A stretch of 64,000 nucleotides of DNA, from positions 682,001 to 746,000 of the forward strand of contig NZ_JAIQZK010000001.1 in assembly GCF_020075545.1 (NCBI RefSeq), given 5' to 3'. This document shows positions 5,940 to 32,142 of this stretch, in pieces. Positions within the stretch are counted from its first letter, which is position 1. Each line of letters begins with the position of its first letter. Position numbers and translations under genes: made by a program. The stretch comes from Nocardioides sp. TRM66260-LWL. GTDB lineage: Bacteria; Actinomycetota; Actinomycetes; Propionibacteriales; Nocardioidaceae. The notes beneath the pieces are model-generated. The model saw only the letters and a program-made list of their open reading frames with translations, made no database searches and was not told where the DNA came from.

Positions 5940-5955
5940 CTACTTTCTATAGTAG
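5940..5955. promoter_or_regulatory. BlaI/CopY-type operator, site 1
   Basis: Perfect 5-bp arms CTACT and AGTAG separated by 6 bases (TTCTAT), 40 bases upstream of the VanY-type gene. The same arms and spacing recur at six other intergenic places in this window, and a BlaI/CopY repressor is encoded at 26400-26756. Assignment to that repressor is inference from motif type (TACT...AGTA dyads are typical of the family) and location. Confidence 0.65.
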
Positions 5956-5994
5956 AAGTTCGATTCAGCCGCGGCGCCGCAAGGAGATCCTCAG

Positions 5995-6774
5995 ATGGGT
6001 TCGGAACCGCGGCACCGCGCGTCCGCGCCCGCGCGTCATCGAGGCACGCGACGAGCAAAGCCGCGGCGCCCTCGCTTCCCGGTCGGCATTTCGGCGGCGG
6101 TCGTTACGCTGGGGGCTGTCGCCCTGGGAAGCACTGCCTCCGTCATGGGTGTCGGCGGAGGAACCGGGGAGGCCGCGGAGGCCTCCGACCGCAACGGCCG
6201 CCGAGATCTGCAATCCACGATCCCCTCAGCAGCCGACCGCAACCTCGAGGTCGACCGGCGGCGGCTCGAGGTGACCTTGAGCCGCAGCGCTCCCCGTGCC
6301 ACCTCGGGCACCGCTCGTCGTCAGCCGGCGTGGTTGGCTGCGTGTGACACGGCGCCGCAGGTCTTGCCGGATGCCAATGGCACGGTCCCGGATGCCCGTC
6401 TGTGTGAATTACCGGACGGATTCCATCTCCGAGGCGACGCAGCATTGGCATGGTCACGCCTCGCGGCCACCTATGTGCGCGAGTTCGGTGAGGAACCGTG
6501 CATGACCGACGGCTACCGCGACCTCGCCACTCAGCGCCGGCTTGCGGCGATCAAGCCCGGACTCGCTGCCCGGCCCGGAACCAGCAACCACGGCTGGGGA
6601 GTCGCGGTCGACCTGTGCGGTGGCATCGAAAAGTTCGGGACGACGCAGTACGAGTGGATGACCGCCAACGCTGAGCGCCTGGGATGGGTCAACCCGTCCT
6701 GGGCACGGTCTGGTGGATCACGTCCTGAACCGTGGCATTGGGAGTATGCGGCGGCGACGACGGGGGAGGGCTGA
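5995..6774 (+). CDS. VanY-type D-Ala-D-Ala carboxypeptidase (peptidase M15)
   Basis: 259-residue secreted or membrane-anchored zinc peptidase. The N-terminus is Arg-rich, then a hydrophobic segment (about residues 30-52) acts as signal or anchor. The C-terminal VanY domain shows TDGYRDLATQRRL, then SNHGWGVAVDL (the SxHGxxxxxD zinc box) and EPWHWEY (second zinc His). It trims the stem peptide of peptidoglycan. AAGGAG at 5981-5986 fixes the ATG. A BlaI/CopY operator lies just upstream; cell-wall enzymes are classic targets of BlaI-type repressors. The stop overlaps the next gene's start. Confidence 0.85.
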   Translation: MGSEPRHRASAPARHRGTRRAKPRRPRFPVGISAAVVTLGAVALGSTASVMGVGGGTGEAAEASDRNGRRDLQSTIPSAADRNLEVDRRRLEVTLSRSAPRATSGTARRQPAWLAACDTAPQVLPDANGTVPDARLCELPDGFHLRGDAALAWSRLAATYVREFGEEPCMTDGYRDLATQRRLAAIKPGLAARPGTSNHGWGVAVDLCGGIEKFGTTQYEWMTANAERLGWVNPSWARSGGSRPEPWHWEYAAATTGEG

Positions 6775-7067
6775 TGTCCAGACAACGCGCCAAGGCTCCG
6801 GCTCCCGCTCCCGCTCCCGCTCCCGCTCCCGCCCCTGTTCCTCCCAGCGGGCAGGACTCTCGCTACGGGCGGACGCCGAAGTACCGCGCCCTACTGCTGG
6901 GCCTGCCGCCCGCGCTGCTTCTCATCGCACTCGGTGCCCTGTGGACTCTCCAGTCGTGGGGTGTCATCGGAGACGACGCAGGCTCCAAGTCGCTGAGCGC
7001 GGTGGGATCCATCGTGTGCGGCTTCGGCGTCGCGCTGGCCTACGTGGTCATTCGGCCGCGACGCTAG
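6774..7067 (+). CDS. Small membrane protein with Ala-Pro repeat
   Basis: 97-residue protein of unknown function. Residues 8-21 are an Ala-Pro dipeptide run encoded by five to six copies of the hexamer gctccc (6795-6830), a likely length-variable linker. Two membrane segments follow (LLLGLPPALLLIALGALWTL and a C-terminal IVCGFGVALAYVVI). Its ATG overlaps the TGA of the VanY-type gene (6772-6776), so it is coupled to it and probably sits in the same membrane or wall process. Confidence 0.65.
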   Translation: MSRQRAKAPAPAPAPAPAPAPVPPSGQDSRYGRTPKYRALLLGLPPALLLIALGALWTLQSWGVIGDDAGSKSLSAVGSIVCGFGVALAYVVIRPRR

Positions 7068-7073
7068 ACCCAT

Positions 7074-7089
7074 CTACTATCCTCCGTAG
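7074..7089. promoter_or_regulatory. BlaI/CopY-type operator, site 2
   Basis: CTACT-ATCCTC-CGTAG: nine of ten arm positions match the CTACT-N6-AGTAG pattern of site 1. It lies 43 bases before the GTG of the DUF3093 gene, where it would overlap the promoter of the DUF3093 / membrane protein / cupredoxin operon. Confidence 0.6.
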
Positions 7090-7131
7090 GAGAATGCTGG
7101 GCGCGATGCTCGCGCGGCGAGAGGCAGGGCT

Positions 7132-7650
7132 GTGCGAGTACGCGACGATTACCGCGAGCGTCTACGGGCGCCGGTGCGCTGGTGGCTGCTGTGGGGGCTC
7201 ATGATCTGGACCTTCTGGCTCGCGATGGTCGCCGCGCTACCGGGCTCCCTCGCCTTGGGTATCGCGCTCGGGCTCTACGCCCTTCTCGCGCTGGCCCTAC
7301 TGACCTATGGGTCGGTGCGGATCGTGGTGACCGATCAATGGCTCCACGTCGGTCACGCACGCATCGAGCGTCACTTCGTGGGGCACGTCGAGGCGCTCGA
7401 TGCCGCACGGATGCGCGCGATCTCAGGCCCCGAAGCCGACGCGCGGGCCTACCTCGTCCTGCGCCCCTACATCAAGACGGGCGTACGCATCACCATCGAC
7501 GATCCAGCCGACCCGGCGCCGTACTGGCTGGTCAGCTCACGGCGACCGGCCGCACTCGCCGCGGCTCTGAACACCCCGCAAGCCACACCGACCGAACAAT
7601 CTGGACCGTTCCTCCAGGCCCGACAAATGGGAGCGGAGGGTGAGGAATGA
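7132..7650 (+). CDS. DUF3093 family membrane protein
   Basis: 172 residues; GTG start 7 bases after GAGG. Two adjacent membrane segments (WWLLWGLMIWTFWLAMVAALP and ALGIALGLYALLALALLTYG) are followed by a soluble beta-rich domain (VRIVVTDQWLHVGHARIE; TGVRITIDDPADPAPYWLVSSRRP), the actinobacterial DUF3093 pattern. Its function is unknown. Here it leads a five-gene run with the two paralogous membrane proteins and the cupredoxin-like lipoprotein, overlapping the next gene by four bases. In many actinobacteria it is a housekeeping gene, so this operator-linked copy is unusual. Confidence 0.7.
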   Translation: MRVRDDYRERLRAPVRWWLLWGLMIWTFWLAMVAALPGSLALGIALGLYALLALALLTYGSVRIVVTDQWLHVGHARIERHFVGHVEALDAARMRAISGPEADARAYLVLRPYIKTGVRITIDDPADPAPYWLVSSRRPAALAAALNTPQATPTEQSGPFLQARQMGAEGEE

Positions 7651-9023
7651 TCGAGGCGCATGGCATCGGCGGACAGGCTGATCTGCCGATCCCGCTCTCG
7701 CTCGCGGTCGGCGGTGCCGGGGTCGCGCTGGTCCTGTCGTTCGTGGTGATGACCATCGCGTGGCGATCGACCCGCTACGACGGCGAAGCCGCGCCTCAAG
7801 GGCGACCCGTCTCCAGCCGCATCGCTCGCGTGCTGCTCTCGGTCGCGTGGCGACGGACGTTGCAGACCGCCGGCATGGCGCTCTTCGCCTACACCGTCAT
7901 CGTGGCGCTGTTCGGGCAGGACAGTCTCACCAATCCGTTCTTCGGCATCGTGTACGTCTGGTGGTGGGTCGGGCTCGTCTTCGCCTCGCTGCTCTTCGGG
8001 CCGGTCTGGCGATCCATCAGCCCCCTCCGCACGATCCACGCCCTCCTGAGCCGGGCCACCGGTGGCGACCGGGAGCACGGGATCTACACATACCCGGCCC
8101 AGCTCGGCTACTGGCCGGCGGCCCTGGGGCTCTTCGCGTTCGTCTGGCTCGAGCTGGTCTACGACAACAGCAGCAGCCTGGGTGACGTGCGGCTGTGGTG
8201 CACGATCTACGTCGCCATCATGCTGGTCGGCGGATCCCTGTTTGGGTCGACCTTCTACCAGAAGGCAGACCCCTTCGAGGTCTACTCGACCCTGATGGGC
8301 CGTCTCTCGCCCTGGCACATCACACACCCCGCTGCAGGCGACGGGGACACGCCCGCAACCGAGGACGACGCTCAGACCGCCACTGCGCGTCTGGTCTTGC
8401 GCAGCCCGCTCGCAAACCTCGCGGGAACTCCGCCAGTGCCTGGGCTGATCGCCGTGGTTGCGGTGCTCTTCGGAAGCACCGCCTTCGACTCCTTCGGCAA
8501 CTCACCGTTTTGGATCCGGACCATCTACAACAGCTCACTGTCGGCGAACATCCTCAACAACCTCGCCCTCATCGTGTTCTGCGTGGCCGCTGGAACGCTG
8601 TTCGCCCTCGGCTCCATGCTCACGCAGCCCGGGGACGGACGGCGGCGCACTGAACTACCGGGACTGTTCGCACACTCCCTGGCTCCGATCATCGCTGCCT
8701 ACGTGCTCGCGCACTACATCACGTTGTTCGCCGACTACGGTCTGCAGACACTCGGCCTGGTCAGCGACCCGTTCGGGAAGGGCTGGAACCTTTTCGGTAC
8801 CGCGGCCCTGGCCCCGACCTTCTGGTTCTCCTACCATCCAACGTTGCTCGCCTCGATCAAGGTCGGCGCGGTCGTTGCCGGGCACGTCACAGCGGCCATC
8901 GCCGCCCACGACCGCGCCCTCAGCGTGCTTGCGCCCCAGCATCGAATCACCGGCCAGATCCCGCTGCTGATCACCATGGTCGGATTCACGACCGGCGGAC
9001 TCCTTCTCCTGTTCTCCGCATGA
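7647..9023 (+). CDS. Polytopic membrane protein, paralogue A
   Basis: 458 residues, about ten membrane segments; I do not recognise a named family. It shares much of its length with the protein at 10245: the N-terminal HG(I/M)GG..DLPI motif, KADPFEVYS..M..LSPW, GLIAVVAVLFGSTAFDSF, then AHS..PII..Y..AHYITL, HPTLLASIKVGAVVAGHV and AAHDRAL. Several His in membrane segments or loops are conserved between the two copies, which would suit metal or haem binding. It overlaps both neighbours by four bases (ATGA). Transport or electron transfer linked to the cupredoxin-like lipoprotein is inference. Confidence 0.6.
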   Translation: MIEAHGIGGQADLPIPLSLAVGGAGVALVLSFVVMTIAWRSTRYDGEAAPQGRPVSSRIARVLLSVAWRRTLQTAGMALFAYTVIVALFGQDSLTNPFFGIVYVWWWVGLVFASLLFGPVWRSISPLRTIHALLSRATGGDREHGIYTYPAQLGYWPAALGLFAFVWLELVYDNSSSLGDVRLWCTIYVAIMLVGGSLFGSTFYQKADPFEVYSTLMGRLSPWHITHPAAGDGDTPATEDDAQTATARLVLRSPLANLAGTPPVPGLIAVVAVLFGSTAFDSFGNSPFWIRTIYNSSLSANILNNLALIVFCVAAGTLFALGSMLTQPGDGRRRTELPGLFAHSLAPIIAAYVLAHYITLFADYGLQTLGLVSDPFGKGWNLFGTAALAPTFWFSYHPTLLASIKVGAVVAGHVTAAIAAHDRALSVLAPQHRITGQIPLLITMVGFTTGGLLLLFSA

Positions 9024-10242: not shown

Positions 10243-10244
10243 CG

Positions 10245-13433: not shown

Positions 13434-15059
13434 TCAGCGGCTTCCATCCGCCGCGGCGGATGCCTCGGATGCTTCGGCGAGTTGCTCGCGTTCCGTATGC
13501 AGCGGACCTGCGGTGCGTCGCCGGGTGCGGCCCGCACCAGCCGCGACGGCAGCAACACCCAGTAGGCAGATCATCCAGGTCAACGCGGGGCCGAGCCGGA
13601 CGGCGGCGGTTTGGCGGTCGATCAGGGGGACTGTGGCCATCGCGACATCGGTCGTCCGTGGTCGTAGCCGGGTGACCACGGATCCGTCCGGGGCGATCAC
13701 TCCGCTGATGCCGTTGGTGGATGCCACGACGACCGTGCGCCCGGTCTCCAACGCTCGTAGCCGGCTGATGGCGAACTGTTGCTCGAGCTGGGCGGTACCG
13801 ATGAAGGAGGCGTTGCTGGTCTGCACGGTCACCAGTTGCGCCCCGCGTCGTACTTGCGCCGTGACCGAGTCGTCGAAGGCGACGTCGAAGCAGATCAGAT
13901 CCGCCACCAGTGCTCCCGCTATCTCCAGGGGCCGGGTGCGTGTGCCTGGGGTCATGTCTCGCGGCACCATGTCGAGGCGGCCGATCTTCAGGCCTGCGAG
14001 CTGTTTGCGGAACGGGATGTACTCGCCGAAGGGAACCGGATGTCTCTTGGTGTACCGCTCGGAGACAGTTCCGTCCGTGTTCCAGACCAGGCCCTGGTTC
14101 AACACCTCGTCCGCCCGGCGCCCATCGACGATCGCCCCCACCAGTGTGGGAACCCCGATGGCCCTAGTCGCCTGGTTGATCCCCGATCGGGTCGCTGCGT
14201 CACTGAACGGGTCGACCGCGGTCGAGTTCTCCGGCCACAGCACGAAGTCTGGTCGTAGCAGATCGCCATTGCGGAGCTGCTGCGCGAGCCTCGTGGTGGC
14301 TGTGACGTGGTTGGCCGTGACCTGCCGGTGAACCGCGACCACGTCGTTGCCGGCGCCCGGCACATCGCCCTGGACCGCAGCGACCCGGACTGACGGCTGG
14401 CCGCTCTCCCAGGACGATGCCAAGGACGGGGCGGCCACAACGACGGGGAAGCCCACCAAGCCGACGAGCCCCAGCCCGGTCAGGAGTAGCTGGCGCCCCT
14501 CGAGGCCCCGTGACGCTGCGCTGCGGGAGCGCATGCCCAACAGGGATGCGCTGAGGGCGACGACCAGAGCCCCGAGGAGGGCCCCGAGGAGGGCGACCAC
14601 GAAGCTGGTGCCGGACGCCCCGATCCAGGGCAGCCACCGCGACAGGGGCGTGTCGATCGTGGTCCACGCAAGCCGGGTCCATGGGAAGCCCCCGAGCGGC
14701 CACGCAGCCATGACGGTCTCGACCGTGACCCACCATGCCGCAACCCACAGTGGCCAACAGCGCAGCCGCGCCACCACCGCGATCCCAGCCCCGGCGACGG
14801 CGTAGTAGCCGGCCGCGGCGAAGCCGATGAGGAGCCACGCATCAGTTCCGATCACCCGCATCCAGGACGCCAGCGCGAGAACGTAGGTGAGGCCGAAGAT
14901 CAGGCCCACCGCCGCACCTGTTCGCAGTCGCGCGGCGCGTGCCGCTGACACGAGACCGGCCACCGCGAGCGGGGCCATCCACCGCCACTCCAGCGGCGCC
15001 GCGGCCGAAGCCGCGCCGAGGCCGGCGGCCGCGGCCAGGATGGGTCGCCACCACGACAT
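13434..15059 (-). CDS. lnt: Apolipoprotein N-acyltransferase
   Basis: 541 residues. An N-terminal block of about six membrane segments (to about residue 205) is followed by a nitrilase-type periplasmic domain and a final membrane segment. The catalytic triad is visible: Glu in LWPENS, Lys in RYTKRHPVPFGEYIP and Cys in DLICFDVAF. The enzyme adds the third acyl chain to the N-terminal Cys of lipoproteins, and this window encodes many lipoproteins. A GTG three codons upstream (15068) is an alternative start. The C-terminal tail is Glu/Ala-rich and dispensable-looking. Confidence 0.88.
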   Translation of the reverse strand: MSWWRPILAAAAGLGAASAAAPLEWRWMAPLAVAGLVSAARAARLRTGAAVGLIFGLTYVLALASWMRVIGTDAWLLIGFAAAGYYAVAGAGIAVVARLRCWPLWVAAWWVTVETVMAAWPLGGFPWTRLAWTTIDTPLSRWLPWIGASGTSFVVALLGALLGALVVALSASLLGMRSRSAASRGLEGRQLLLTGLGLVGLVGFPVVVAAPSLASSWESGQPSVRVAAVQGDVPGAGNDVVAVHRQVTANHVTATTRLAQQLRNGDLLRPDFVLWPENSTAVDPFSDAATRSGINQATRAIGVPTLVGAIVDGRRADEVLNQGLVWNTDGTVSERYTKRHPVPFGEYIPFRKQLAGLKIGRLDMVPRDMTPGTRTRPLEIAGALVADLICFDVAFDDSVTAQVRRGAQLVTVQTSNASFIGTAQLEQQFAISRLRALETGRTVVVASTNGISGVIAPDGSVVTRLRPRTTDVAMATVPLIDRQTAAVRLGPALTWMICLLGVAAVAAGAGRTRRRTAGPLHTEREQLAEASEASAAADGSR

Positions 15060-15095
15060 GCCGAACACCCGAATCAGCCCCGATCCAACGCCGGC

Positions 15096-15755
15096 TCAGC
15101 CGGCCGTTGCGCGGTCGGCGAGCGTGGCGAGCAAGCGACCAAGTTCCTTGTCAGACACCTCGCCAATCACGCGATCGACGACGCGACCCTCTGCGTCGAC
15201 GGCAAGAGTCACCGGGAGCCCGGGCACTCGTGTTGCCTCGAGCACGGTGCCCTCGGCATCAACGACCTGGGGATAGGTGACGCCGAGCTCCTCGAGGAGT
15301 GCGCCTGCCAGCTCGACATCGTCGCGGGTATCGACACCCAGGAAACCGACCTCGTTGCTGCGGCGGGCGGCCTCGGCCAGCCGCGGCAGCTCCTTACGGC
15401 ACGGCGAGCACCACGACGCCCAGAGGTTGACGATGGTGGGGCCGCGCAGGGCCGCCATGTCGACCGCGCTGGACTCGTTCAGGCAGGGGAGTGTGGTGCG
15501 GGGGAGGCCTTCGGAGGGCGACGAGCTCGGGCGGCCGTCGAGATTCGCGCAGCCCTTCAGTCCGGCGACCGCCACCGGCAACGTGTCCTTGTCGGCCCGG
15601 GCCGGCTGGTCGGTGTTGGCAGCGCACCCGGTCAGTGCGCTGAGGACCACGACAATGAGCCCGCTCGCCAGTCCCCGTCGTCTGCCGACTCTTAGGCCGG
15701 GCAGCTCCGTTCGGCGCCGGCGTCCCTCCTGGCCTCTCCGGGGCATGGTTGCCAC
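15096..15755 (-). CDS. TlpA/ResA-type thioredoxin-like lipoprotein
   Basis: 219 residues from a GTG 6 bases after GGAGGAG. The signal segment ends in a lipobox (ALTGC, Cys44). The thioredoxin domain has WCSPC at residues 115-119, the TRDD strand and the cis-Pro segment LPVTLAV. ResA/TlpA proteins reduce the haem-binding Cys pair of apocytochrome c using electrons from CcdA (26875 here). The insert of about 60 residues before the active site (with Cys69 and Cys91) is longer than usual. It is divergent from the DUF3105 operon across an operator. Confidence 0.8.
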   Translation of the reverse strand: MATMPRRGQEGRRRRTELPGLRVGRRRGLASGLIVVVLSALTGCAANTDQPARADKDTLPVAVAGLKGCANLDGRPSSSPSEGLPRTTLPCLNESSAVDMAALRGPTIVNLWASWCSPCRKELPRLAEAARRSNEVGFLGVDTRDDVELAGALLEELGVTYPQVVDAEGTVLEATRVPGLPVTLAVDAEGRVVDRVIGEVSDKELGRLLATLADRATAG

Positions 15756-15787: not shown

Positions 15788-15803
15788 CTACTAAGTAGAG
15801 TAG
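15788..15803. promoter_or_regulatory. BlaI/CopY-type operator, site 3
   Basis: CTACT-AAGTAG-AGTAG, a perfect match to both arms, in the 108-base gap between the divergent TlpA-like gene (15755) and DUF3105 gene (15864). It could control both directions, including the eight-kilobase cytochrome c / copper operon to the right. Confidence 0.65.
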
Positions 15804-15863
15804 TACTAAGCCCGGTCGGAGCATGCTCGCAGGCGGGCCTCACACGCTCGCGACGACAGGACC

Positions 15864-20413: not shown

Positions 20414-20438
20414 CCCCCCACGAGCACAAGGAGAACCC

Positions 20439-23230: not shown

Positions 23231-24190
23231 TCAGGTGTGGATCGGCAGCCGACAGTAGTCGAGGAGCGCCGCCTCCAGCGCCGGCGCGGCAGCGATCAAG
23301 ACCGGCGCGAGCATCAAGGTGAGCGCCGTCAGACGGATCGACCACCGCTGATGCTGCGTCAGCGCCGGACCGGTGGTCAACAGACGCTGAACACGTTGAA
23401 TCGCGGGCCCCCCGTTGATCGCCATCGTCCCCACCGGCTGCGGACCCGCTGCCAGCTTCACCAGCGCGGCGGCCAGCTGCGGGCGATCCGACGCAACGGC
23501 CGCACGGTCGTCAGCATGCATCTCCACCAGCATCGCGGTCTCTGCCTCGGCGACAGCGAACAGGCGGCTGCGGGGGTGGGCCCGTCGGGCGGCAGCGGCC
23601 AGAGTCAGCGCCAGGTGGTGGCGACCGGTGAGGTGCGCCTTCTCGTGGGCGAGCGCTAGAACCCGCTGCTGTGGGGTGAGAACGCTCAGTGCGCCGGTGG
23701 TGACTACCACGCGGGCGGGATGGCCGGGGATGCAGAAGACCGCGGGCCGCTCGTCGTCGACCACCCACGTGCCGCTCAGCACGTCTCGCCTGCTGACGAG
23801 AGCGAAGCCGTCACGCTGGCGAGCCCGATGACGGTGCACCGTCCGCAGTTCACCCGCCACGCTGAATCCCCAGCGCGCTGAGAGCGCCACCGCTCCCAGC
23901 AACCCGAAGAAGCCGACGACGAAGCCGCCAGGGGTTTCATAGTGCTCGCGCAGCAGCACCGCGCAGGCACCGAGAACATCGGACATGTCCTCTGCGGCGA
24001 CGGGAAGCACGGGGACGGCGAGCGCGAGCCCGGCCAGGATCACCGACGCCGGCACGGCGAGGGTCACTGCCTGCCAGGCGACGACGCCCAAGCGGGGCGC
24101 GCGCCGCGGCCAGGCTGCACCGGGCAAGACCCGAAGCGCCGATATTCGGACCAGGGCGGCGAAGGCCAGCAGAGCGAGCGCCGCGGTCAT
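23231..24190 (-). CDS. M56-family (BlaR1/MecR1-like) membrane metallopeptidase
   Basis: 319 residues. Membrane segments lie at about residues 1-20, 36-64 and 88-106; then comes a cytosolic zinc protease domain with HEKAH at 182-186 (HEXXH) and a downstream acidic motif (AEAETAMLVEMHADD), and a C-terminal membrane segment. BlaR1-type proteases inactivate BlaI-family repressors. This one lacks the penicillin-binding sensor domain, so it must sense something else. The repressor gene (26400) is not adjacent but lies 2.2 kb upstream on the same strand. It converges on the CopD-CtaG gene. Confidence 0.78.
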   Translation of the reverse strand: MTAALALLAFAALVRISALRVLPGAAWPRRAPRLGVVAWQAVTLAVPASVILAGLALAVPVLPVAAEDMSDVLGACAVLLREHYETPGGFVVGFFGLLGAVALSARWGFSVAGELRTVHRHRARQRDGFALVSRRDVLSGTWVVDDERPAVFCIPGHPARVVVTTGALSVLTPQQRVLALAHEKAHLTGRHHLALTLAAAARRAHPRSRLFAVAEAETAMLVEMHADDRAAVASDRPQLAAALVKLAAGPQPVGTMAINGGPAIQRVQRLLTTGPALTQHQRWSIRLTALTLMLAPVLIAAAPALEAALLDYCRLPIHT

Positions 24191-24209: not shown

Positions 24210-25127
24210 TCACCATGACAGCTCCGTGCACGCCGTGGCATCCGATTCGACCTGCAAGGTGGCGTGCTCGACGCCGTACCGATCACGCAGAGCCGCTTGG
24301 GCGGCGACGAGGACCGCGGGCGACGACCCGGGGGCCGCGACCAGGTGCGCTGTGGCGACGTTCATGCCCGACGTCAGCGTCCACAGATGCAGGTCGTGGA
24401 CCTCGTCCACCCCGTCAACGCCAATGAGCGTTGCCTCGACCTCGGCGGGATCCATGCCGGCCGGTGCGTGCTGGCCGAGCACGGTCAGCACCTCTCGGCC
24501 CAGCATCACGGCGCGGACGACGACGAACGCGGCGATCGCAAGGGCGATGCCGGTGTCCCACCACACGCTGCCGGTGAGGGCCACCATCAGGCCCGCAGCG
24601 ATGACCCCGACGGAACCGACGGTGTCGGCGACCACCTCGAGGTAGGCCCCCTTGACGTTGAGGCTTTCGCCGGCTCCGCCGCGCAGCAGCATCAGGGCAG
24701 CGATGTTGATCAGCAACCCGATGGTGCCGACGACCATCACTGCGCCGGACTCGAGCTCGACGCTCTGCCCGATCCGGCGCAGGCCCTCGATTGCGACGTA
24801 TGCGCCGGCGCCGAGCATGAGGAGCACGGTCAGGCCGGACGCGAAGACCTCTGCTCGGTAGGAGCCGAATGTCTTGCGGCCCGTGCGGTCCTTCATCGTG
24901 GCGATCCGGGTGGCAGCGAGTGCGGCGCCGAGCGCGACGACGTCGGCGGCCATGTGGCCGGCGTCGGACAGCAGGGCCAGCGATCCCGACCAGAGGCCGG
25001 TGACGAGCTCGACGCCGAAGAACGAGCCGACGAGGCCGAAGGAGAGCCCGAGCCGCCACCGGTGTCGGCCACCGGCGTGGCCCTGAGCGGCGCCTTGGCC
25101 GTGTCCGTGTCCGTGTCCGACGCCCAT
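24210..25127 (-). CDS. CDF cation efflux protein with His-rich N-terminus
   Basis: 305 residues. The His-Gly repeat at the N-terminus (HGHGHGQG) is encoded by a short tandem repeat near 25100-25119. Six membrane segments follow with the zinc-site motifs LLSDAGHMAADVVAL (TM2; HxxxD variant) and EVVADTVGSVGV (TM5), then a cytosolic CDF C-terminal domain (EVHDLHLWTLTSGM). It exports zinc or similar ions in exchange for protons. TGATG coupling to the next CDF-like gene upstream, downstream of an ArsR regulator. Confidence 0.87.
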   Translation of the reverse strand: MGVGHGHGHGQGAAQGHAGGRHRWRLGLSFGLVGSFFGVELVTGLWSGSLALLSDAGHMAADVVALGAALAATRIATMKDRTGRKTFGSYRAEVFASGLTVLLMLGAGAYVAIEGLRRIGQSVELESGAVMVVGTIGLLINIAALMLLRGGAGESLNVKGAYLEVVADTVGSVGVIAAGLMVALTGSVWWDTGIALAIAAFVVVRAVMLGREVLTVLGQHAPAGMDPAEVEATLIGVDGVDEVHDLHLWTLTSGMNVATAHLVAAPGSSPAVLVAAQAALRDRYGVEHATLQVESDATACTELSW

Positions 25128-25963
25128 CAGTTTCCACTCCGTCCAAGGGTGAGGGGGACAGTCGAGGCAGGCTGGCAGCAAGATGTGCCACACCCGTCGT
25201 CGACTGGTGCATCCTGCGGCGCTGACGCGGCCGCGGGGTGCTCGAGGCGCGCGGATTGCGCAGCAGGGAGCTCGCCGGTGTGCGCGGGACCGCAGGCGCA
25301 TCCCTCTCCGCGCCAGGCCTCGATGCCCTCGCGAAGCGCAACAGCGGCGATCACCAGGCCGGCCAGCGGGTCTGCCCAGGACCACCCCAGGAGGGCGTTG
25401 AGCAGAAGTCCGGCGAGCAAAACTGCGGACAGGTAGGTGCACAACAGGGTCTGCGTGGAGTCGGCGACGACCGCGCCGGAGCCGAGCTCTCGGCCGGTGC
25501 GGCGTTGTGCCCACGACAGGAACGGCATGATCGCCAGCGACAGCGCAGCCAGGGCGATGCCGACCGTCGAGGTGTCCGGGGCGTTGCCGCCGACGAGTGC
25601 ACGCAGCGACTCGAAGGTGACGTAGCCGGCGAGCGCGAAGAAGCTGAGGGCCATCAGGCGAAGTGCCTGACGCTCGCGGGACTCGGGCAGCGGGTGCCGG
25701 AACTGCCAGAGGATGACCAGGCCGCTGCTGACCTCGACGACCGAGTCGAGCCCGAAGCCGACGAGCGCGACGGAGCCGGCTACCAGGCCGGCTGTCACGG
25801 CGATGACTGCCTCGATGACGTTGTAGGTCACCGAAGCAGCTGCCAGCAGCTGTGCTCGTCGCATCAGTCGTCGGCGGCGGTCCGCGTCCAGCGCCGCCCA
25901 GGCGCCGCCGCCGGTCACGCCGCTACCTGTCACGCCGGCGTTGGGCGAGCCGGCGGTGGTCAT
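25127..25963 (-). CDS. CDF-like cation transporter with Cys-rich tail
   Basis: 278 residues, six membrane segments of the CDF fold: SVALVGFGLDSVVEVSSG (TM2 metal site) and VVADSTQTLLCTYLSA (TM5 metal site). It lacks the normal cytosolic C-terminal domain. Instead the tail is Cys/Ala-rich (EGCACGPAH, then DDGCGTSCCQP), a possible metal-binding extension. The start overlaps the ArsR stop (25960-25963). Metal choice may differ from the partner CDF protein; zinc, cadmium or cobalt are plausible. Confidence 0.78.
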   Translation of the reverse strand: MTTAGSPNAGVTGSGVTGGGAWAALDADRRRRLMRRAQLLAAASVTYNVIEAVIAVTAGLVAGSVALVGFGLDSVVEVSSGLVILWQFRHPLPESRERQALRLMALSFFALAGYVTFESLRALVGGNAPDTSTVGIALAALSLAIMPFLSWAQRRTGRELGSGAVVADSTQTLLCTYLSAVLLAGLLLNALLGWSWADPLAGLVIAAVALREGIEAWRGEGCACGPAHTGELPAAQSARLEHPAAASAPQDAPVDDGCGTSCCQPASTVPLTLGRSGN

Positions 25964-26349
25964 GCCGTGGCTCCGATGCCGGAGCTGGGGCACAGGACCA
26001 CGGCGTCGCCGGTGGCCGAAAGGAGTTCTTCAGTCGCGGCGAAGACCTTCACGACGGCGCCGGGCTGGGTCAGGGTGAAGACGGAGGAGCGACCCACCGG
26101 CCTCGACTCGACCAGTCCGCAGTCGCGCAGGCAGGCAAGGTGCTTGGAGACGGTGGACTGGGCCAGTCCGAGGTGCGAGGTGAGCTCGGCGACGTTGTGC
26201 TCGCCCAGCAGGAGGTGACGCACGATCGCGACCCGCGACGGGTCGCCCATTGCGCGGAACAGGCAGGACGCGGCGATCGCTGCGGCGTGCTCGTCCACCT
26301 CGCTCACCTCGTCGGCCGGGGTGGCAACACCCTCACTATGCATCGTCAT
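25960..26349 (-). CDS. ArsR/SmtB-family metal regulator
   Basis: 129 residues with a winged helix: MGDPSRVAIVRHLLLGE, then NVAELTSHLGLAQSTVSKHLACLRDCGLV (recognition helix) and the wing SRPVGRSSVFTL. His/Cys residues near both ends (MHSEG, CLF and CPSS) may form the sensing site. It is first in an operon with two CDF-type exporters and most likely represses it until zinc or a similar metal binds. An ATG two codons downstream (26343) is an alternative start. Confidence 0.85.
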   Translation of the reverse strand: MTMHSEGVATPADEVSEVDEHAAAIAASCLFRAMGDPSRVAIVRHLLLGEHNVAELTSHLGLAQSTVSKHLACLRDCGLVESRPVGRSSVFTLTQPGAVVKVFAATEELLSATGDAVVLCPSSGIGATA

Positions 26350-26399: not shown

Positions 26400-26756
26400 T
26401 CATTCGCGAGAGCGGTCCAGCAAGGCCCGAAGCTCGGCGGCCTCCTCGGGAGGCAGCTGTTCCACGAAGTGGACCAATGCGGCGGTCCGATCGCCGCCGG
26501 TGTCGAGCGCCTCTGACATCAGGCCCGCGACATGGGCATCGCGCGACGTGGCGGGCCTGTAGTGCCACGCCCGGCCGACGCGTTCGCGATGCACGAAGTC
26601 CTTGCGGTGGAGGTTGTCGAGCACGGTCATCACCGTCGTGTACGCCCGGTTCCGATCCTGGGGCAGCGCGTCAAGTACCTGTCGCACCGCGAGTGCAGAT
26701 TCGGCCGACCACAGGATCTCCATCACCTGCGCCTCCAGCTCGCCGAGACCCTTCAT
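26400..26756 (-). CDS. BlaI/MecI/CopY-family repressor
   Basis: 118 residues. The winged helix GLGELEAQVMEILWSAESALAVRQVLDAL and AYTTVMTVLDNLHRKDFV is diagnostic of the family, followed by VGRAWHYRPA and a C-terminal dimerisation helix pair. There is no Cys-x-Cys copper motif of the enterococcal CopY type, so release may rely on proteolysis (M56 protein at 23231) rather than direct metal binding. It is divergent from ccdA with an operator between them, which would also give autoregulation. Confidence 0.88.
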   Translation of the reverse strand: MKGLGELEAQVMEILWSAESALAVRQVLDALPQDRNRAYTTVMTVLDNLHRKDFVHRERVGRAWHYRPATSRDAHVAGLMSEALDTGGDRTAALVHFVEQLPPEEAAELRALLDRSRE

Positions 26757-26801
26757 GGCCTGTTGCTCCTCCCGATCGCGCCGACTACAACAACACTTAT
26801 C

Positions 26802-26817
26802 CTATGCTCGATAGTAG
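26802..26817. promoter_or_regulatory. BlaI/CopY-type operator, site 4
   Basis: CTATG-CTCGAT-AGTAG: eight of ten arm positions match. It lies between the divergent repressor gene (26756) and ccdA (26875), the expected place for autoregulation. Confidence 0.6.
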
Positions 26818-26874
26818 ATGCGCGGGCCGAAGTCCGCACTGCTCGACACGGACGCCGGGGACAACCACAGACAC

Positions 26875-27687
26875 ATGAATGCCACCGACATCGTCATGGA
26901 CGGCCCCCTCCTCCTCGCCGTGGGGCTCGCCGCTGCAGCAGGGCTGGTGTCCTTCCTCTCGCCCTGCTGCCTGCCCCTGGTGCCCGGCTACCTCTCGTAC
27001 GTCACCGGTATGTCCGGCGCAGAGCAACTCGACAAGCGCTCCGTCGCGGGAGTAGGGCCGGGGATGCCTGGAGCGTCGGGGGCCGGGGAGGCCCGGCGAA
27101 GTGGGCGGCGCACCATGCTGGGCGCCGTCCTGTTCGTGCTCGGCTTCGCTGCGGTCTTCACTAGCTACGGCGCGCTCTTCGGCGCCCTGGGCGGATTGCT
27201 GATCGAGCATCAAGAGGCCCTGGTTCGGGCGCTGGGGGTCGTCACGATCATCTTCGGCCTGGTGTTCAGCGGGCTGCTCTGGAGAGTCCCGCTGGCCGGC
27301 CGCAGTTTCCGGCTCACCTATCGACCGCGCGTTGGACTGGCTGGAGCCCCGCTGCTCGGCGTCATGTTCGGGCTCGGCTGGACCCCGTGCATCGGCCCGA
27401 CCCTCGCCGCGGTGCTCACTCTCGCCACATCCTCGGCGGGCGCAGAAAGGGGAGCTTTGCTGTCCTTCGCCTACAGCATCGGACTCGGGATCCCGTTCGT
27501 GGTGGCGGCCTTCTCGGTAGCGCGAGTCATGGATCGACTCAGCTGGGCTCGAAAGCACGCCAACCGCGTCATGCTGCTCGGCGGGATGGCGATGGTCGCC
27601 CTGGGGGCGCTCCAGGTCAGCGGCCTGTGGTTGGAGCTGATGACGCGCCTCCAGGGAGTGGTCGCCAACTGGCAGACCCCCATCTAG
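26875..27687 (+). CDS. ccdA: CcdA-type thiol-disulfide transmembrane carrier
   Basis: 270 residues, six or more membrane segments. The two redox Cys motifs of the DsbD/CcdA core are present: LSPCCLPLVPGYLSY (residues 28-42) and GWTPCIGPTLAAVL. It carries electrons from cytosolic thioredoxin to the TlpA/ResA proteins outside. The ATG at 26818 falls inside the operator, so I use the next ATG. The loop at about residues 47-78 is long and Gly-rich. It is placed beside the repressor rather than in the resB operon. Confidence 0.88.
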   Translation: MNATDIVMDGPLLLAVGLAAAAGLVSFLSPCCLPLVPGYLSYVTGMSGAEQLDKRSVAGVGPGMPGASGAGEARRSGRRTMLGAVLFVLGFAAVFTSYGALFGALGGLLIEHQEALVRALGVVTIIFGLVFSGLLWRVPLAGRSFRLTYRPRVGLAGAPLLGVMFGLGWTPCIGPTLAAVLTLATSSAGAERGALLSFAYSIGLGIPFVVAAFSVARVMDRLSWARKHANRVMLLGGMAMVALGALQVSGLWLELMTRLQGVVANWQTPI

Positions 27688-28416: not shown

Positions 28417-28435
28417 GTCCGCAACCAACCGCCAT

Positions 28436-28451
28436 CTACGATGCGCCCTAG
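28436..28451. promoter_or_regulatory. BlaI/CopY-type operator, site 5 (weak)
   Basis: CTACG-ATGCGC-CCTAG, seven of ten arm positions; an extra AGTAG half-site ends at 28454. It lies in the 59-base gap before the DsbA-like gene, in the same relative place as the better sites. Confidence 0.4.
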
Positions 28452-28475
28452 TAGCTGTCGATCGAAGGGTGCACT

Positions 28476-29135
28476 GTGAAGACCCAGGTGAAGATGTCCC
28501 TGGCCCTGGTTGGGGTTTTCGTGATCGCGGTGGCGGTTCTGCTGATGACGGCAGGTCGGGACGAGGCGAGCCCCGGGTCCGACGCCCCAGGCGGGCGGAC
28601 GGACAGCCGGCTGGTCCGTGCCGACAGCCGGATCCTGGGAGACAAGGGGAGCACCGACGTCACCTTCGTCGAGTTCCTCGACTTCGAGTGCGAGGCGTGT
28701 CGCGCCGCGTACCCGATCGTCGAGCAGCTGCGCGAAAAGTACGGCGACCGGGTCACCTTCGTCGCCCGCTACTTCCCGCTGCCGGGCCACTTCAACTCGG
28801 GGCGAGCTGCCCGCGCGGTCGAGTCCGCTGCCCGGCAGGGCAAGTTCCTCGAGATGTACTCCAAGATGTATGAGTCCCAGGCCGAGTGGGGGGAGAAGCA
28901 GGAGCCGCTCGACGACCTCTTCCGCAGCTTCGCCGTGGAGCTCGGGCTCGACATGACGACCTACGACACCGACTACTCCTCGGCCGAGGTTGCCTCGCGC
29001 GTGCAGCGCGACGTCGACGACGGAACCGCGCTCGGCCTCCAGGGAACACCCACCTTCTACCTCGACGGTGAGCTGCTCAGGCCTTCCTCCGTCGCGGACT
29101 TCGAGAAGGCCATCGAGGACGCACTCGCAAAGTGA
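28476..29135 (+). CDS. DsbA-like thiol oxidoreductase
   Basis: 219 residues, GTG start. The N-terminal membrane anchor (about residues 8-25) is followed by a DsbA domain with the active site CEAC (72-75) and cis-Pro loop LQGTPTFYL. It oxidises thiols of exported proteins. The next gene encodes a VKOR protein, its usual reoxidant in actinobacteria, overlapping by four bases. The CEAC dipeptide differs from the classic CPHC; related mycobacterial DsbA-like proteins vary here too. Confidence 0.85.
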   Translation: MKTQVKMSLALVGVFVIAVAVLLMTAGRDEASPGSDAPGGRTDSRLVRADSRILGDKGSTDVTFVEFLDFECEACRAAYPIVEQLREKYGDRVTFVARYFPLPGHFNSGRAARAVESAARQGKFLEMYSKMYESQAEWGEKQEPLDDLFRSFAVELGLDMTTYDTDYSSAEVASRVQRDVDDGTALGLQGTPTFYLDGELLRPSSVADFEKAIEDALAK

Positions 29136-29773
29136 ACCGGCTGCCGATGAGCCCTGGCGACACCCCCGAGACCGTCGCGACGCCGACAGCCAACCGGGCA
29201 CTCGCCGTCTTGCTCCTGGTCGGCGGTGCCGTCGGTCTCACTGCCGCCTTCTCCCTGGTCCTGGAGAAGATCGCACTGCTCACCGACGCCAACTACACCC
29301 CGACCTGCAGCCTCAACCCCGTCCTCAACTGCGGCTCCGTCATGAAGACGCCGCAGGCCGAGCTCTTCGGCTTTCCCAACCCGCTGCTCGGCGTCGTGGC
29401 GTTCCCGGTCCTCATCGCCACCGGAGCGATCCTCCTGGCCGGCGCACGCCCTGCCCGCTGGTACTGGCTCGGGCTACAGGCGGGAGTCACCCTCGGCATG
29501 GTGTTCGTCGGATGGCTGATCTTCCAGAGCCTCTACCGCATCGGAGCACTCTGTCCCTACTGCATGGCGGTGTGGGCAGTCGTCGTGCCGATGTTCTGGT
29601 ACGTCAGCCTCCGCAATGCCACCGCCGGTGTACTGGGAGGACGAGTGGCAGGCTCGCCCGTCGTTCGCGTCCTGCGCGACTGGCACCTGTTTGGCCTCAT
29701 GGTCCTCATCCTGATCGTTGTTGGACTGATCCTCGAGCAGTTCTGGTACTACTGGCGCACCGCGCTCCTCTGA
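29132..29773 (+). CDS. VKOR-family quinone-linked disulfide oxidoreductase
   Basis: 213 residues, five membrane segments. All four redox Cys are present: Cys59 and Cys67 in the TCSLNPVLNCGSV loop, and Cys141 and Cys144 in LCPYCMAVW. It recharges DsbA by passing electrons to quinone. The GTG start sits within the DsbA stop. The N-terminal 20 residues are hydrophilic and may be overcalled; the next in-frame ATG is residue 6. Confidence 0.88.
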   Translation: MNRLPMSPGDTPETVATPTANRALAVLLLVGGAVGLTAAFSLVLEKIALLTDANYTPTCSLNPVLNCGSVMKTPQAELFGFPNPLLGVVAFPVLIATGAILLAGARPARWYWLGLQAGVTLGMVFVGWLIFQSLYRIGALCPYCMAVWAVVVPMFWYVSLRNATAGVLGGRVAGSPVVRVLRDWHLFGLMVLILIVVGLILEQFWYYWRTALL

Positions 29774-30203
29774 TTCCGTCTCTTGGGCCGGCTCCACCAG
29801 CAGGAGGACGTGGCCCGATTGGGGGCCGACCAGGCGAGCAACGCGTCAGCGACACGGAGGCGCAGTCAGTTGCTGCCGCCAACACCGGGCGCTGATGGGC
29901 GCCCGTGGACCTTGCTAACTACAGGCCGAAAGAACCGCCTCCAATCGGGATGACGAGGCAAAACATGATGAGGACGAGCGGGAACAGGATGTGCTCCTGA
30001 CCTGTTCGCTTCGCACCCATCCGCAAACGGCCGACCCGGCGGCGGGCCGCCCACGGGCGGACCGGCTGATCTGGAACCGGGTCGCGTCCCTCGTCATGCG
30101 CCGCCCCGTCTGATCCTGGTCTCGGTTAGCTCCGTGCTCGTCTGGCTGTTGGTGACGTTCCCTTACGCGCTCGCCGGAAGAGGCCGCTTGCGGCCTGCGC
30201 CCA
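29774..30203 (+). other. Intergenic stretch of about 430 bases with small hydrophobic frames
   Basis: No gene of normal size. On the plus strand the frame ending at the TGA near 30214 encodes a hydrophobic peptide (LILVSVSSVLVWLLVTFPYA) but has no start codon or RBS upstream, so it may be the tail of a decayed membrane gene. On the minus strand a 33-codon frame is listed separately. No clear promoter or terminator. Confidence 0.35.
29919..30020 (-). CDS. Possible 33-residue single-span membrane peptide
   Basis: ATG at 30020, stop at 29919. The peptide starts MGAKRTGQEHILFP and continues as one hydrophobic helix (LVLIMFCLVIPIGGG) ending in SFGL. The clean positively charged start followed by one membrane span is suggestive, and tiny membrane proteins are common in respiratory complexes. 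There is no strong RBS and no homologue that I recognise, so it may be chance. Confidence 0.3.
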   Translation of the reverse strand: MGAKRTGQEHILFPLVLIMFCLVIPIGGGSFGL

Positions 30204-30413
30204 TCACGGCACATTGAGGTCCGCCTTCACCTCAGCCGAGTGCGCCGAGCGGTGCCCCCACGGGAACACCCACCGGAACAGACTCAAGCCTCGACGGTGA
30301 CACCAGCAGTCCTCCGAGCAGCCGCATCTCATCGCACCGAAATGTTCGGCGACCCGGTTCCCGACCGCAATGAGCAGGTAGCCACCGACGGCCACGAGCA
30401 AGACCCGCTTCAC
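30204..30413 (-). CDS. Small Cys-rich membrane protein
   Basis: 69 residues from a GTG 7 bases after GGAGG and overlapping the upstream stop (GTGA). One membrane segment (VLLVAVGGYLLIAVGNRV) is followed by MRCGCSEDCWCHRR, a tight Cys/His cluster suited to a metal or Fe-S ion, then an Arg/Trp-rich tail. Its family is not recognised. It is coupled to a thioredoxin-like protein, so it might be the metal or thiol partner of that protein. Confidence 0.55.
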   Translation of the reverse strand: MKRVLLVAVGGYLLIAVGNRVAEHFGAMRCGCSEDCWCHRRGLSLFRWVFPWGHRSAHSAEVKADLNVP

Positions 30414-30709
30414 GCCAACACCTCCACCAGTTGCGCCGTGTCCGGCGCCCCCCGGAGGCCCGCCGGTGTGGCGTAGACGCGGCACGCGAGGCCAACCAGC
30501 TCCTGACCGGTCGCGAACGGATCGATCCCGTCGATCCGGATCGTCGGCGACCCCACCAAGCCGACCTCCTCGGCCTCAGCGAGTGTCTCGATCGGGCGCC
30601 GCTCAACGACGATGTCGGCGCGACCCAGCACGGTCAGCGCCTCCATCAGCCGGTCGTCGGCAACCTGCCAGTTCGGGCACCCGCTGAAATACAGCAACTC
30701 AACTTGCAA
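30410..30709 (-). CDS. Small thioredoxin-like protein (single active-site Cys)
   Basis: 99 residues. The start is a TTG 7 bases after GAGGAGG; no ATG or GTG fits the RBS. The fold is glutaredoxin/thioredoxin-like: VELLYFSGCPNWQVADDRLM with one Cys (CPxW), a GLVGSPTIRIDGIDPF cis-Pro loop and a C-terminal helix. Such proteins are found in actinobacteria beside mercury, copper or cytochrome genes; the exact reaction is unknown. It is divergent from the CopD gene at 31003 with an operator between them. Confidence 0.65.
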   Translation of the reverse strand: MQVELLYFSGCPNWQVADDRLMEALTVLGRADIVVERRPIETLAEAEEVGLVGSPTIRIDGIDPFATGQELVGLACRVYATPAGLRGAPDTAQLVEVLA

Positions 30710-30903
30710 CGGGATTCCTCCTCGAGGATCAACGAGACTACCTCTCACTCTGCCACCAGCCACGCGAGACCGGCCCACCCAGCAACCGAGTCGGCTGACA
30801 CCAAGGCTCTGCGCCGACGCCCGGTACTGCGATCCTCAACCCGCTCCCGAGCTCCCAGCGAATCGATCCGCGTGGGCGACAAGCATCCAGCTGCAGTCTC
30901 CAA

Positions 30904-30922
30904 CTACTATAGGAGTTAGTAG
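30904..30922. promoter_or_regulatory. BlaI/CopY-type operator, site 6
   Basis: Two overlapping registers of the pattern: CTACT-ATAGGA-GTTAG (30904-30919) and CTATA-GGAGTT-AGTAG (30907-30922), each eight of ten. It lies between the divergent thioredoxin-like and CopD genes. A separate 17-bp palindrome, TAGCCGAC-g-GTCGGCTA, is at 30941-30957. Confidence 0.55.
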
Positions 30923-31002
30923 ACGGCGGAGCCCGAAATGTAGCCGACGGTCGGCTAGGGGCCCTGGGGTCGTAGGAGTCGGTAGGGCGAAGGAGCAGCG
31001 GG

Positions 31003-32142
31003 GTGACGCACCGGTCGGCCGCTCTTGCAACGTTGGTCGGCTCCATCTTGATCGGCGGTGTGGCTTTGGCCGTCCTGACCGTGACAGATCCTCAGCCCGC
31101 CCTGGGCCTGGGCCTACCGGACGCCGGCGCGATCACGCGTTGGGGGCTTCCCGTCGCGCGGGGAGTTCGCGACCTCTCGGCGGCGGCCACGATCGGTCTG
31201 TTGTTCGTCGTGGCAGTCCTATTGCCGGACGACGCTCGCGCACGCCCTCGCCTGGCCGAGGCACGAGCTCGGGGCATCACGGCGGCGACCATTGGCGCCG
31301 GGGTGTGGGCGATCGCCAGCGCGGCGGTCCTCGTGCTCACCTACTCCGACACGGCCGGCATCCCAGTCCTCGAGCCCAGCCTGTGGTCCACGATGCCGAC
31401 CTACCTCCGGAGCGTCGAGCTCGGTCAGGCCAACCTGATCGGCACCGCCATGATCACTGCCGTCGCCGTTGGCTGCCTCGTCGCTCGAAAGGTTGACGGC
31501 ACCGAGGTAGCAGTCCTCCTCGGCTCGCTCGCGGCCCTGTGGCCCATCGCAACCACCGGCCACGCTTCCACCGACGCCAACCACCAGCAGTCCGTACTCC
31601 TGCTGTTCTCCCACCTCGTCGCCGTGAGCATCTGGTTCGGAGGACTGGCGGCCTTCGGATTCCTTCAAGACCAGATCGGACGCTACCGACACGCGGTGCT
31701 CCGCCGATACTCAGTCACCGCGACCTGCTGCCTGGCGCTGGTGGCCCTGTCTGGTGTGGTCAGCGCGATGCTCCGACTCGGCTCCTGGTCCGCGCTGAGC
31801 TCCCCCTACGGTGCCGTGATCGCAGCCAAAGCAACTCTGCTGCTCGTGCTGGGAGCCGTCGGCTTCCTCCACTGCCGACCACTCGTCGACAAGACGCCGA
31901 CCTGGACTGCTCGAGCTCGCCGCCGATTCACCGCCCTCGCCGGCGTCGAGTTGCTCGTCATGTGCGTCGCAGTCGCCCTGGGGATCGCGCTCGGGCGCAC
32001 CCCACCGCCCGACCCCGACCCCTCGCCGGCGACGACACGACACCTGGTTGATCGGTCCCAAGGGGCGACGTCCGAGCAGAGGCGAGCCGCACCGTGGTGT
32101 GGGAGGCCGAGCGGCCCGCCTCCTATTCTTCATAGTAGATAA
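31003..32142 (+). CDS. CopD-domain protein, apparently truncated
   Basis: 379 residues; GTG start 7 to 8 bases after AAGGAG. It is homologous to the N-terminal half of the CopD-CtaG fusion at 21176: the GLPDAGAITRWGLPVARGVRDL opening, TTGHASTDANHQ, FSHLVAVSIWFGGL, SSPYGAVIAAKATLL and the end GRTPPP. Right after that point the homology stops. The last 50 residues are a Pro/Arg/Ser tail that runs into operator site 7. It is either a natural CopD-only protein or a copy that lost its CtaG half. It probably transports copper across the membrane. Confidence 0.75.
   Translation: MTHRSAALATLVGSILIGGVALAVLTVTDPQPALGLGLPDAGAITRWGLPVARGVRDLSAAATIGLLFVVAVLLPDDARARPRLAEARARGITAATIGAGVWAIASAAVLVLTYSDTAGIPVLEPSLWSTMPTYLRSVELGQANLIGTAMITAVAVGCLVARKVDGTEVAVLLGSLAALWPIATTGHASTDANHQQSVLLLFSHLVAVSIWFGGLAAFGFLQDQIGRYRHAVLRRYSVTATCCLALVALSGVVSAMLRLGSWSALSSPYGAVIAAKATLLLVLGAVGFLHCRPLVDKTPTWTARARRRFTALAGVELLVMCVAVALGIALGRTPPPDPDPSPATTRHLVDRSQGATSEQRRAAPWCGRPSGPPPILHSR
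32123..32138. promoter_or_regulatory. BlaI/CopY-type operator, site 7
   Basis: CTATT-CTTCAT-AGTAG, eight of ten arm positions, overlapping the last codons of the CopD gene and 72 bases upstream of the FliL-like gene. Confidence 0.5.

Follow-up and report, generated by a model that had tools for sequence, protein, structure and literature searches.

A BlaI-type operator regulon of cytochrome c assembly, thiol-redox and copper genes in Nocardioides, with a candidate cysteine-bearing partner protease

We analyzed a 64,000-nucleotide stretch of DNA, called the window below, from Nocardioides sp. TRM66260-LWL (contig NZ_JAIQZK010000001.1, positions 682,001 to 746,000). It contains a gene cluster in which a BlaI-family repressor gene, seven copies of a palindromic operator and a gene for a membrane metalloprotease lie among genes for cytochrome c assembly, thiol-redox chemistry and copper handling. 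An earlier note made from the letters of the window (the original prediction) had proposed seven intergenic sites with the arms CTACT-N6-AGTAG, and all seven were found, at or within 3 bp of the positions it gave. The register of the arms was wrong: the sites fit a 19-bp palindrome, CTACTA-N7-TAGTAG, each at 10 to 12 of 12 positions (scores listed below), whereas as CTACT-N6-AGTAG they match, in the same order, 10, 9, 10, 8, 7, 8 and 9 of 10.

5937..5955, operator, 12/12, CTACTACTTTCTATAGTAG, before the VanY-type gene
7074..7092, operator, 11/12, before the DUF3093 gene
15788..15806, operator, 11/12, between the divergent thioredoxin-lnt and DUF3105 operons
26799..26817, operator, 10/12, between divergent blaI and ccdA, 42 bp before the blaI start; putative autoregulatory site
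28436..28454, operator, 11/12, before dsbA-vkor
30904..30922, operator, 12/12, before the second copD
32120..32138, operator, 11/12, before the FliL-like gene

As proposed, all seven lie in promoter-like positions, that at 32120-32138 overlapping the end of the second copD open reading frame (ORF); two of them (15788 and 26799), rather than the three claimed, stand between divergent genes. At up to one mismatch the window holds six matches to CTACTA-N7-TAGTAG; the 90 possible orderings of the arm letters (CTACTA included) average 0.09, and the next-best ordering has one. At up to three mismatches there were 13 matches, compared with a shuffle mean of 1.5, and none of 100 shuffles reached 13. 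When all hexamer arms with spacers of 3 to 11 were ranked by G-score, the motif came fifth, after four TCGACG-type words, whose excess over the expectation from base composition (13 or 11 versus 0.28) was smaller than its own (6 versus 0.016).

Genome-wide, the arms CTACT-N6-AGTAG occur at 41 places at up to one mismatch, whereas the corrected form occurs at 10 in the 3.9-Mb genome (five perfect, five with one mismatch). Six of these lie in the window and four on a second contig, C4 (28628, 31524, 37553 and 49949). All 10 fall in two clusters, each holding one of the only two genes found by a search for the BlaI family (PF03965). Because the C4 sites were not used in motif discovery, they provide an independent test of it; on the C4 stretch, the CTACTA ordering gave four matches at up to one mismatch and the other orderings none.

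The genes of the window cluster are as follows.

5995..6774, + strand, VanY-type D-alanyl-D-alanine carboxypeptidase (PF02557); recurs under the operator in relatives
7132..7650, + strand, DUF3093 protein (PF11292); first gene of a likely operon with 7647-9023
7647..9023, + strand, protein without Pfam match; homologues in relatives' regulon clusters
13434..15068, - strand, apolipoprotein N-acyltransferase, lnt (PF20154, PF00795); behind the thioredoxin-like gene, same strand
15096..15749, - strand, TlpA/ResA-like thioredoxin; start picked at an internal Met
15864..16493, + strand, DUF3105 protein (PF11303)
16493..17275, + strand, DUF305 protein (PF03713)
17272..17892, + strand, TlpA-like redoxin (PF08534)
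17889..19496, + strand, ResB (PF05140); one of three in the genome
19034..20413, + strand, CcsA cytochrome c assembly protein (PF01578); ORF over-extended at the 5' end
20400..21179, + strand, CopC (PF04234)
21176..23191, + strand, CopD-CtaG fusion (PF05425, PF09678)
23231..24190, - strand, BlaR1-like membrane metalloprotease (motifs HEKAH and EMHADD); without beta-lactam sensor domain
24210..25514, - strand, cation diffusion facilitator, CDF (PF01545); between blaI and protease; 5' end over-extended
25960..26349, - strand, ArsR-family regulator (PF01022); between blaI and protease
26400..26756, - strand, BlaI-family repressor, regulon type (PF03965, 1.5e-27); DNLH at the putative recognition helix, no Cys
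26818..27687, + strand, CcdA/DsbD-type transmembrane protein (PF02683); true start probably downstream
28476..29135, + strand, DsbA-like thioredoxin (PF13462, PF01323)
29132..29773, + strand, VKOR (PF07884)
31003..32142, + strand, second CopD (PF05425)
32210..32653, + strand, FliL-like protein (PF03748)

The original prediction had missed the protease and lnt, together with kinds of gene that recur in relatives (lipoprotein maturation, oxidase subunits, L,D-transpeptidases), and its cupredoxin label for the DUF3093 operon is without Pfam support. A DUF305-like gene and a P-type metal ATPase gene also lie in the window at 48613-52388, with no operator there at up to three mismatches. No beta-lactamase or PBP2a family was found among the scanned ORFs of the window and the C4 stretch, other loci not having been searched for one, and PADLOC gave one weak partial match.

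The repressor had been described as local, which the C4 cluster does not support, as it has a blaI of its own. By Pfam this cluster also encodes an M48/M56-like peptidase, ResB, CcsA, a TlpA-like redoxin, CcdA, prolipoprotein diacylglyceryl transferase (Lgt), M23, an amidase, a P-type ATPase with YHS and HMBD domains, a multicopper oxidase and DUF3152. The genome holds three ResB and two Lgt copies, these being the families counted genome-wide, and the copies outside the clusters (ResB on C10, Lgt at C1:541595) have no operator nearby at up to two mismatches. The ResB and Lgt of the regulon are extra copies in this genome; the other target families may have the same status.

Perfect sites, 62 in all, were found in 25 of 149 genomes of the family Nocardioidaceae. 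PF03965 was over its cut-off in all 25, compared with 79 of the 149 overall, and 56 of the 62 sites have a PF03965 gene no more than 21 kb away; of the other six, two (genome G085) are on a contig other than that of its blaI, and four are on contigs without a blaI match (G138, G002, G045 and G001). In maps of 40 family stretches, sites precede ResB-CcsA, CopC-CopD/CtaG, DsbA-VKOR-CcdA-TlpA, VanY and M23 genes, as well as DUF3093, FliL, CDF, DUF3105-DUF305 and DUF3152. A stricter operator form with 14 fixed bases was found patchily, in 7 of 296 genomes of the class, a figure that does not measure prevalence because the form is too strict.

The product of 26400-26756 is, as predicted, a BlaI-family protein: its winged-helix Penicillinase_R domain (PF03965) scored 96.6 bits against a cut-off of 22.6. 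Its best solved match was 2g9w (1.2e-21), entitled a conserved hypothetical protein in the PDB, which we take to be BlaI Rv1846c of Mycobacterium tuberculosis. Relatives were collected as the best 80 named loci together with 109 plasmid records (E <= 1e-8). A protease gene lies downstream of blaI, within a set distance, in 109 of 121 BlaI matches, the gap being within 100 bp in 105 of these 109 pairs; the C4 pair was skipped here and is in none of the pair counts. In 103 of the 109 BlaI proteins a Phe occupies the P1' position of BlaR1-type cleavage (LVHFVEQ in the window protein, where cleavage itself is predicted), BlaR1 being described as cutting BlaI between Asn101 and Phe102 (PMC9834060). 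Within the operator, CTAT-N5-ATAG has the same geometry as the motif given for one Clostridium thermocellum BlaI, i.e., a GTCTAT inverted repeat five nucleotides apart (PMC8457756).

The other half of the original label, CopY, did not survive. CopY is homologous to BlaI and is described as binding copper through a C-terminal CXC motif (PMC7253601). This motif is present in none of the 109 aligned domains, the window protein has no Cys at all, and it scored 34.9 bits against the TIGR02698 cut-off of 121.95; membership of the CopY/TcrY group was rejected. The family and the copper context are shared with CopY/TcrY, whereas the operator is not TACANNTGTA. In a copper-selected M. smegmatis strain a CopY-family repressor is listed as down (PMC4452738), a lead only as regards the BlaI type described here. 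A Corynebacterium repressor, "CutR", was considered as a published counterpart and dropped, a literature search having returned unrelated work only.

The protease encoded in the window has 319 residues and ends ten residues after its last predicted helix. Two of its cysteines, Cys76 in the loop between transmembrane helices 2 and 3 (TM2-TM3) and Cys313 in the C-terminal tail, are both predicted to be exoplasmic, and the C4 protease likewise has an outer-loop Cys and another close to its C-terminus. The HExxH and ExxAD motifs are kept in all 104 scorable protease rows, five more having gaps. In Pfam the window protein, the longer ORF included, matched Peptidase_M48 only; Peptidase_M56 (PF05569) was missed by it and also by the C4 homologue, read as a fragment (27.2 versus 31 bits). 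No penicillin-binding extracellular sensor domain was found in the window protease by Pfam or after its last predicted helix. Its AlphaFold model had a mean predicted local distance difference test score of 90.4. Foldseek returned BlaR1 only at E 0.14, with no match at or below 0.001. The top VIA-align matches were BlaR1 (8exs, Z 10.6; 8exq, Z 10.2) beside ZMPSTE24 and BepA; because helical proteins can reach such Z scores by arrangement alone, they support a gluzincin membrane fold rather than BlaR1 alone. BlaR1 is described as having its N-terminus, helix 2-3 loop and C-terminus outside and its active site inside (PMC9834060), and the mean loop charges (+3.0 for the TM1-TM2 loop, -1.0 for the outer loop) agree with this topology.

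The pairs fall into two types. Four without an aligned outer loop (L096, L159_8985, L189 and L115) were left out of the cysteine count, leaving 105. In 22 of these a four-residue helix stretch has Arg as its second residue (the Arg type, DRLA-like), and in the other 83 (the regulon type) the stretch is non-Arg, mostly DNLH, a ratio that does not measure prevalence because the pattern used to find the 80 named loci favours DNLH-type helices. Among all 109 pairs, the sites of the 25 Arg-type pairs have C and G at positions 7 and 13 (CG type) in 16, with no site in eight and the other kind in one, while the 84 regulon-type pairs have non-CG sites in 66, none in 15 and CG sites only in three. The mean number of regulon gene classes per locus, out of 14, was 3.5 for the regulon type and 0.3 for the Arg type, where three loci have any; lnt homologues were found at 22 regulon-type loci (the window and two near-duplicates included) and one Arg-type locus. 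The best solved match, Rv1846c, has the helix QRLA of the Arg type.

A predicted exoplasmic Cys, in loop or tail, is present in 81 of the 83 regulon-type proteases and in none of the 22 of the Arg type. Within the regulon type 52 have two outer cysteines, 15 three or more, 14 one and two none, with loop and tail both represented in 58. Fisher's test for the association gave a p of 1e-20, with kinship ignored; when the loop, tail and helix columns were dropped before tree building, 21 of the 22 Arg-type rows grouped in a single clade, and the two traits changed jointly in just two independent comparisons, both in the expected direction. The association is clean, with few independent events behind it. 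Six Arg-type loci (L112, L115, L128, L142, L152 and L158) carry one to three CG-type sites at up to one mismatch and none of the 14 regulon classes; these sites look like self-regulation. A Y-C-x-P motif before the active site (residues 152-155 of the window protease) is nearly invariant in an alignment that includes both types, and so does not distinguish one from the other.

Annotation of ten plasmid loci was taken from 10 of the 109 plasmid records: four from Rhodococcus, two from Mycolicibacterium and one each from Mycobacterium gallinarum, Gordonia, Kocuria and Pseudonocardia. All ten have an M56-labelled peptidase downstream of blaI in the PLSDB/NCBI annotation. Their neighbours, in varying sets, include lnt, lgt, lspA, resB, ccsB, ccdA, TlpA and VKOR; ctaD, oxidase subunit III, SURF1, CtaG, CopC and DUF305; and M23, RipB/RipC, L,D-transpeptidases (three confirmed by YkuD) and metal efflux genes. 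The plasmid lspA genes, three in all, neighbour P-type ATPase genes that adjoin ArsR genes, and are perhaps part of a different metal operon. At up to two mismatches all 21 sites in these loci are intergenic, although only 21% of the DNA is (p = 7e-15); the count omits three CG-type sites, all in L214 and all between genes. Genes behind the 21 include TlpA, ctaD, lgt, lnt, L,D-transpeptidase, CtaG and BlaI.

Across 84 stretches (79 regulon-type loci and five added neighbours, L031, L032, L107, L117 and L097), 105 of 173 sites fall in the interval from -150 to +250 around the start of a gene in one of 40 query families, compared with 14% of random positions; near-duplicate loci (L185, L124, L125 and L094) and CG-type sites were omitted. 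After BlaI itself, the commonest genes behind these sites are DsbA, ResB and TlpA, and the targets that recur are resB/ccsA, ccdA/tlpA, dsbA/vkor, copC/copD-ctaG, M23/VanY peptidases, lgt, lnt and ctaD. The central claim of the original prediction, a repressor with a scattered operator linking cytochrome c assembly, thiol chemistry and copper genes, thus stands well beyond the window: the same switch recurs, often plasmid-borne, in many Actinobacteria. Among the best 80 named loci the closest pair is that of Nocardioides sp. Root190, with the same unusual order blaI, arsR, cdf, protease. The insertion of arsR-cdf between blaI and protease was seen in the window and two Nocardioides relatives (L129 and L130).

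We propose that these components form a BlaI/BlaR1-type switch, probably one turned to extracytoplasmic metal or thiol damage. The BlaI-family dimer would bind CTACTA-N7-TAGTAG and repress its own and about six other promoters of the window. In place of a beta-lactam domain, the protease would use a cysteine in the outer TM2-TM3 loop and another in its short tail; a thiophilic metal acting there, with copper the likeliest, or a disturbance of the thiol state of these cysteines would switch on the cytoplasmic active site, the activated protease would cut BlaI before the conserved Phe, and the regulon would be released. Its products would provide metal handling (CopC, CopD and CDF, joined in relatives by multicopper oxidase and P-type ATPases) and a set, made up largely of spare copies, of cysteine-, haem- or copper-dependent envelope enzymes (ResB/CcsA, CcdA/TlpA, DsbA/VKOR, Lnt/Lgt, oxidase subunits and peptidoglycan enzymes).

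Sequence evidence for the regulon and its repressor is strong, and both are very likely real. Control of BlaI by the protease is likely, since the protease motifs, fold, topology and conserved Phe all argue for a chain from outer signal through protease and BlaI cleavage to derepression; operator binding and cleavage are themselves predictions. For a thiophilic-metal or thiol signal at the outer cysteines we would put the case as evenly balanced, their role as the sensor being suggested by position and distribution. Cytochrome c assembly is a copper target. Copper is also reported to block lipoprotein acylation at the Lgt step, inhibit L,D-transpeptidases and cause wrong disulfides (PMC6593411), and it is because the targets are steps that copper harms (lipoprotein acylation, L,D-transpeptidases, disulfides) that we infer copper or thiol stress as the signal. 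More tentatively, and with the balance slightly against it, the protease may be a BlaR1-type receptor in which a minimal outer cysteine sensor of copper or thiol damage has taken the place of the antibiotic-sensing domain, and which through BlaI cleavage brings into play many substitutes for envelope enzymes, often encoded on plasmids, i.e., cytochrome c ligase, disulfide machinery, lipoprotein maturation, oxidase subunits and L,D-transpeptidases: target replacement against metal, comparable to that by mecA against beta-lactams.

If correct, the proposal would give actinobacteria a widespread means of detecting metal or thiol damage beyond the membrane, distinct from the CsoR-type regulators that annotation places beside it on several plasmids, and it would account for the lnt, lgt, resB, ctaD and L,D-transpeptidase genes found on metal plasmids. 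The candidate sensor, two cysteines in a 319-residue protein, is amenable to test. We found no published description of this regulon in a literature search that most subscription journals lay outside.

Several observations weigh against the proposal. The 15 regulon-type pairs mentioned above have no site at up to one mismatch in the stretch examined, and three have sites of the other type only; three of the ten plasmid loci (L213, L215 and L216) have none at up to two mismatches in theirs. Conversely, the Arg-type locus L097 has four regulon gene classes and no site. A disulfide pair is not universal, given the 14 regulon-type proteases with one outer Cys and the two with none, and the few independent comparisons and the ambiguity of the fold scores, noted above, count on the same side. 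No gene for a c-type cytochrome, a presumed client of the spare ResB/CcsA, was found in the window or the C4 stretch; a local scan gave two CXXCH strings, both in short ORFs overlapping other genes. Because efflux genes for Cd, Zn and As occur in many of the clusters too, copper is perhaps not the main signal.

Of the alternatives, a copper-supply regulon, induced by copper scarcity to load cytochrome oxidase (via CtaG, CopC/CopD import, SURF1 and extra ctaD), appears unlikely. The clusters do contain CopC, CopD-CtaG, ctaD and SURF1, and a review citing work on the copper-deprivation stimulon of Corynebacterium glutamicum connects CopC and CtiP of this species with the import of copper for the oxidase (PMC9145763). 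However, the same clusters carry multicopper oxidase, P-type ATPases and genes for Cd/As efflux, copper would be spent on any additional copper enzymes, and Lnt, Lgt, L,D-transpeptidases and peptidoglycan peptidases would have no evident role in such a supply. The C. glutamicum CtiP/CopC response is regulated by SigC and others. It resembles our system in its CopC and CopD-CtaG proteins (PMC9145763), although its direction is opposite.

That the repressor itself senses metal, as its homologue CopY does through the C-terminal CXC (PMC7253601), with the protease an unrelated neighbour, is improbable: there is no CXC, the aligned BlaI domain lacks any Cys in 105 of 109 cases, and the protease is too regularly downstream and close. 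Quite improbable is a cell-wall or beta-lactam switch like classical BlaI/BlaR1 with the thiol and copper genes as passengers; VanY, M23, amidase, NlpC/P60 and L,D-transpeptidase genes do recur, but the protease (319 residues; M48 only, even as the longer ORF) is without a penicillin-binding sensor domain, and DsbA, ResB and TlpA lead the genes behind sites. Binding of the palindrome by another cluster regulator (ArsR, CsoR) can be almost dismissed. ArsR genes do lie near some of the sites (6 of the 173), but a number of site-bearing loci have no ArsR match, the sites track PF03965 across genomes, and the operator shares the geometry of the C. thermocellum BlaI motif (PMC8457756).

The proposed damage-responsive switch resembles staphylococcal BlaI-BlaR1 and MecI-MecR1 in its winged-helix repressor, its membrane gluzincin protease with matching motifs and fold, the conserved Phe at the cleavage position and, as target logic, an insensitive replacement enzyme (there PBP2a, with mecA against beta-lactams). 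It differs in having outer cysteines instead of a beta-lactam sensor domain, a different operator and a large regulon of thiol, cytochrome c and metal genes. Rv1846c, although the best solved match, carries the helix of a type whose pairs lack outer cysteines, go with C/G at operator positions 7 and 13 and are accompanied by few regulon genes. In Escherichia coli Cpx/NlpE, an outside lesion, copper included, is likewise reported to induce envelope repair such as dsbA (PMC6593411), but Cpx/NlpE is a two-component system whose sensor, a lipoprotein, belongs to another class of protein.

Some further genes stand beside blaI or the operators. Cytochrome oxidase subunit I genes lie behind operators (10-12/12) in several genera (L183:12983-14755, L186:8033-9784, L210:8688-10433 and L214:13951-15741). 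On a Kocuria rosea plasmid, cytochrome bd oxidase genes lie beside blaI and divergent from it, with no operator at up to two mismatches (L215:5731-11862). A divergent BlaI-like protein without a protease partner is encoded directly before a CopD/CtaG gene and a P-type ATPase gene at two loci (L092:8747-9127 and L093:4385-4804), and may be a third kind of regulator. Finally, small Met-rich proteins, possible copper binders, are encoded beside sites (L100:7172-7465 and L140:12006-12398) and form families of five and four loci.

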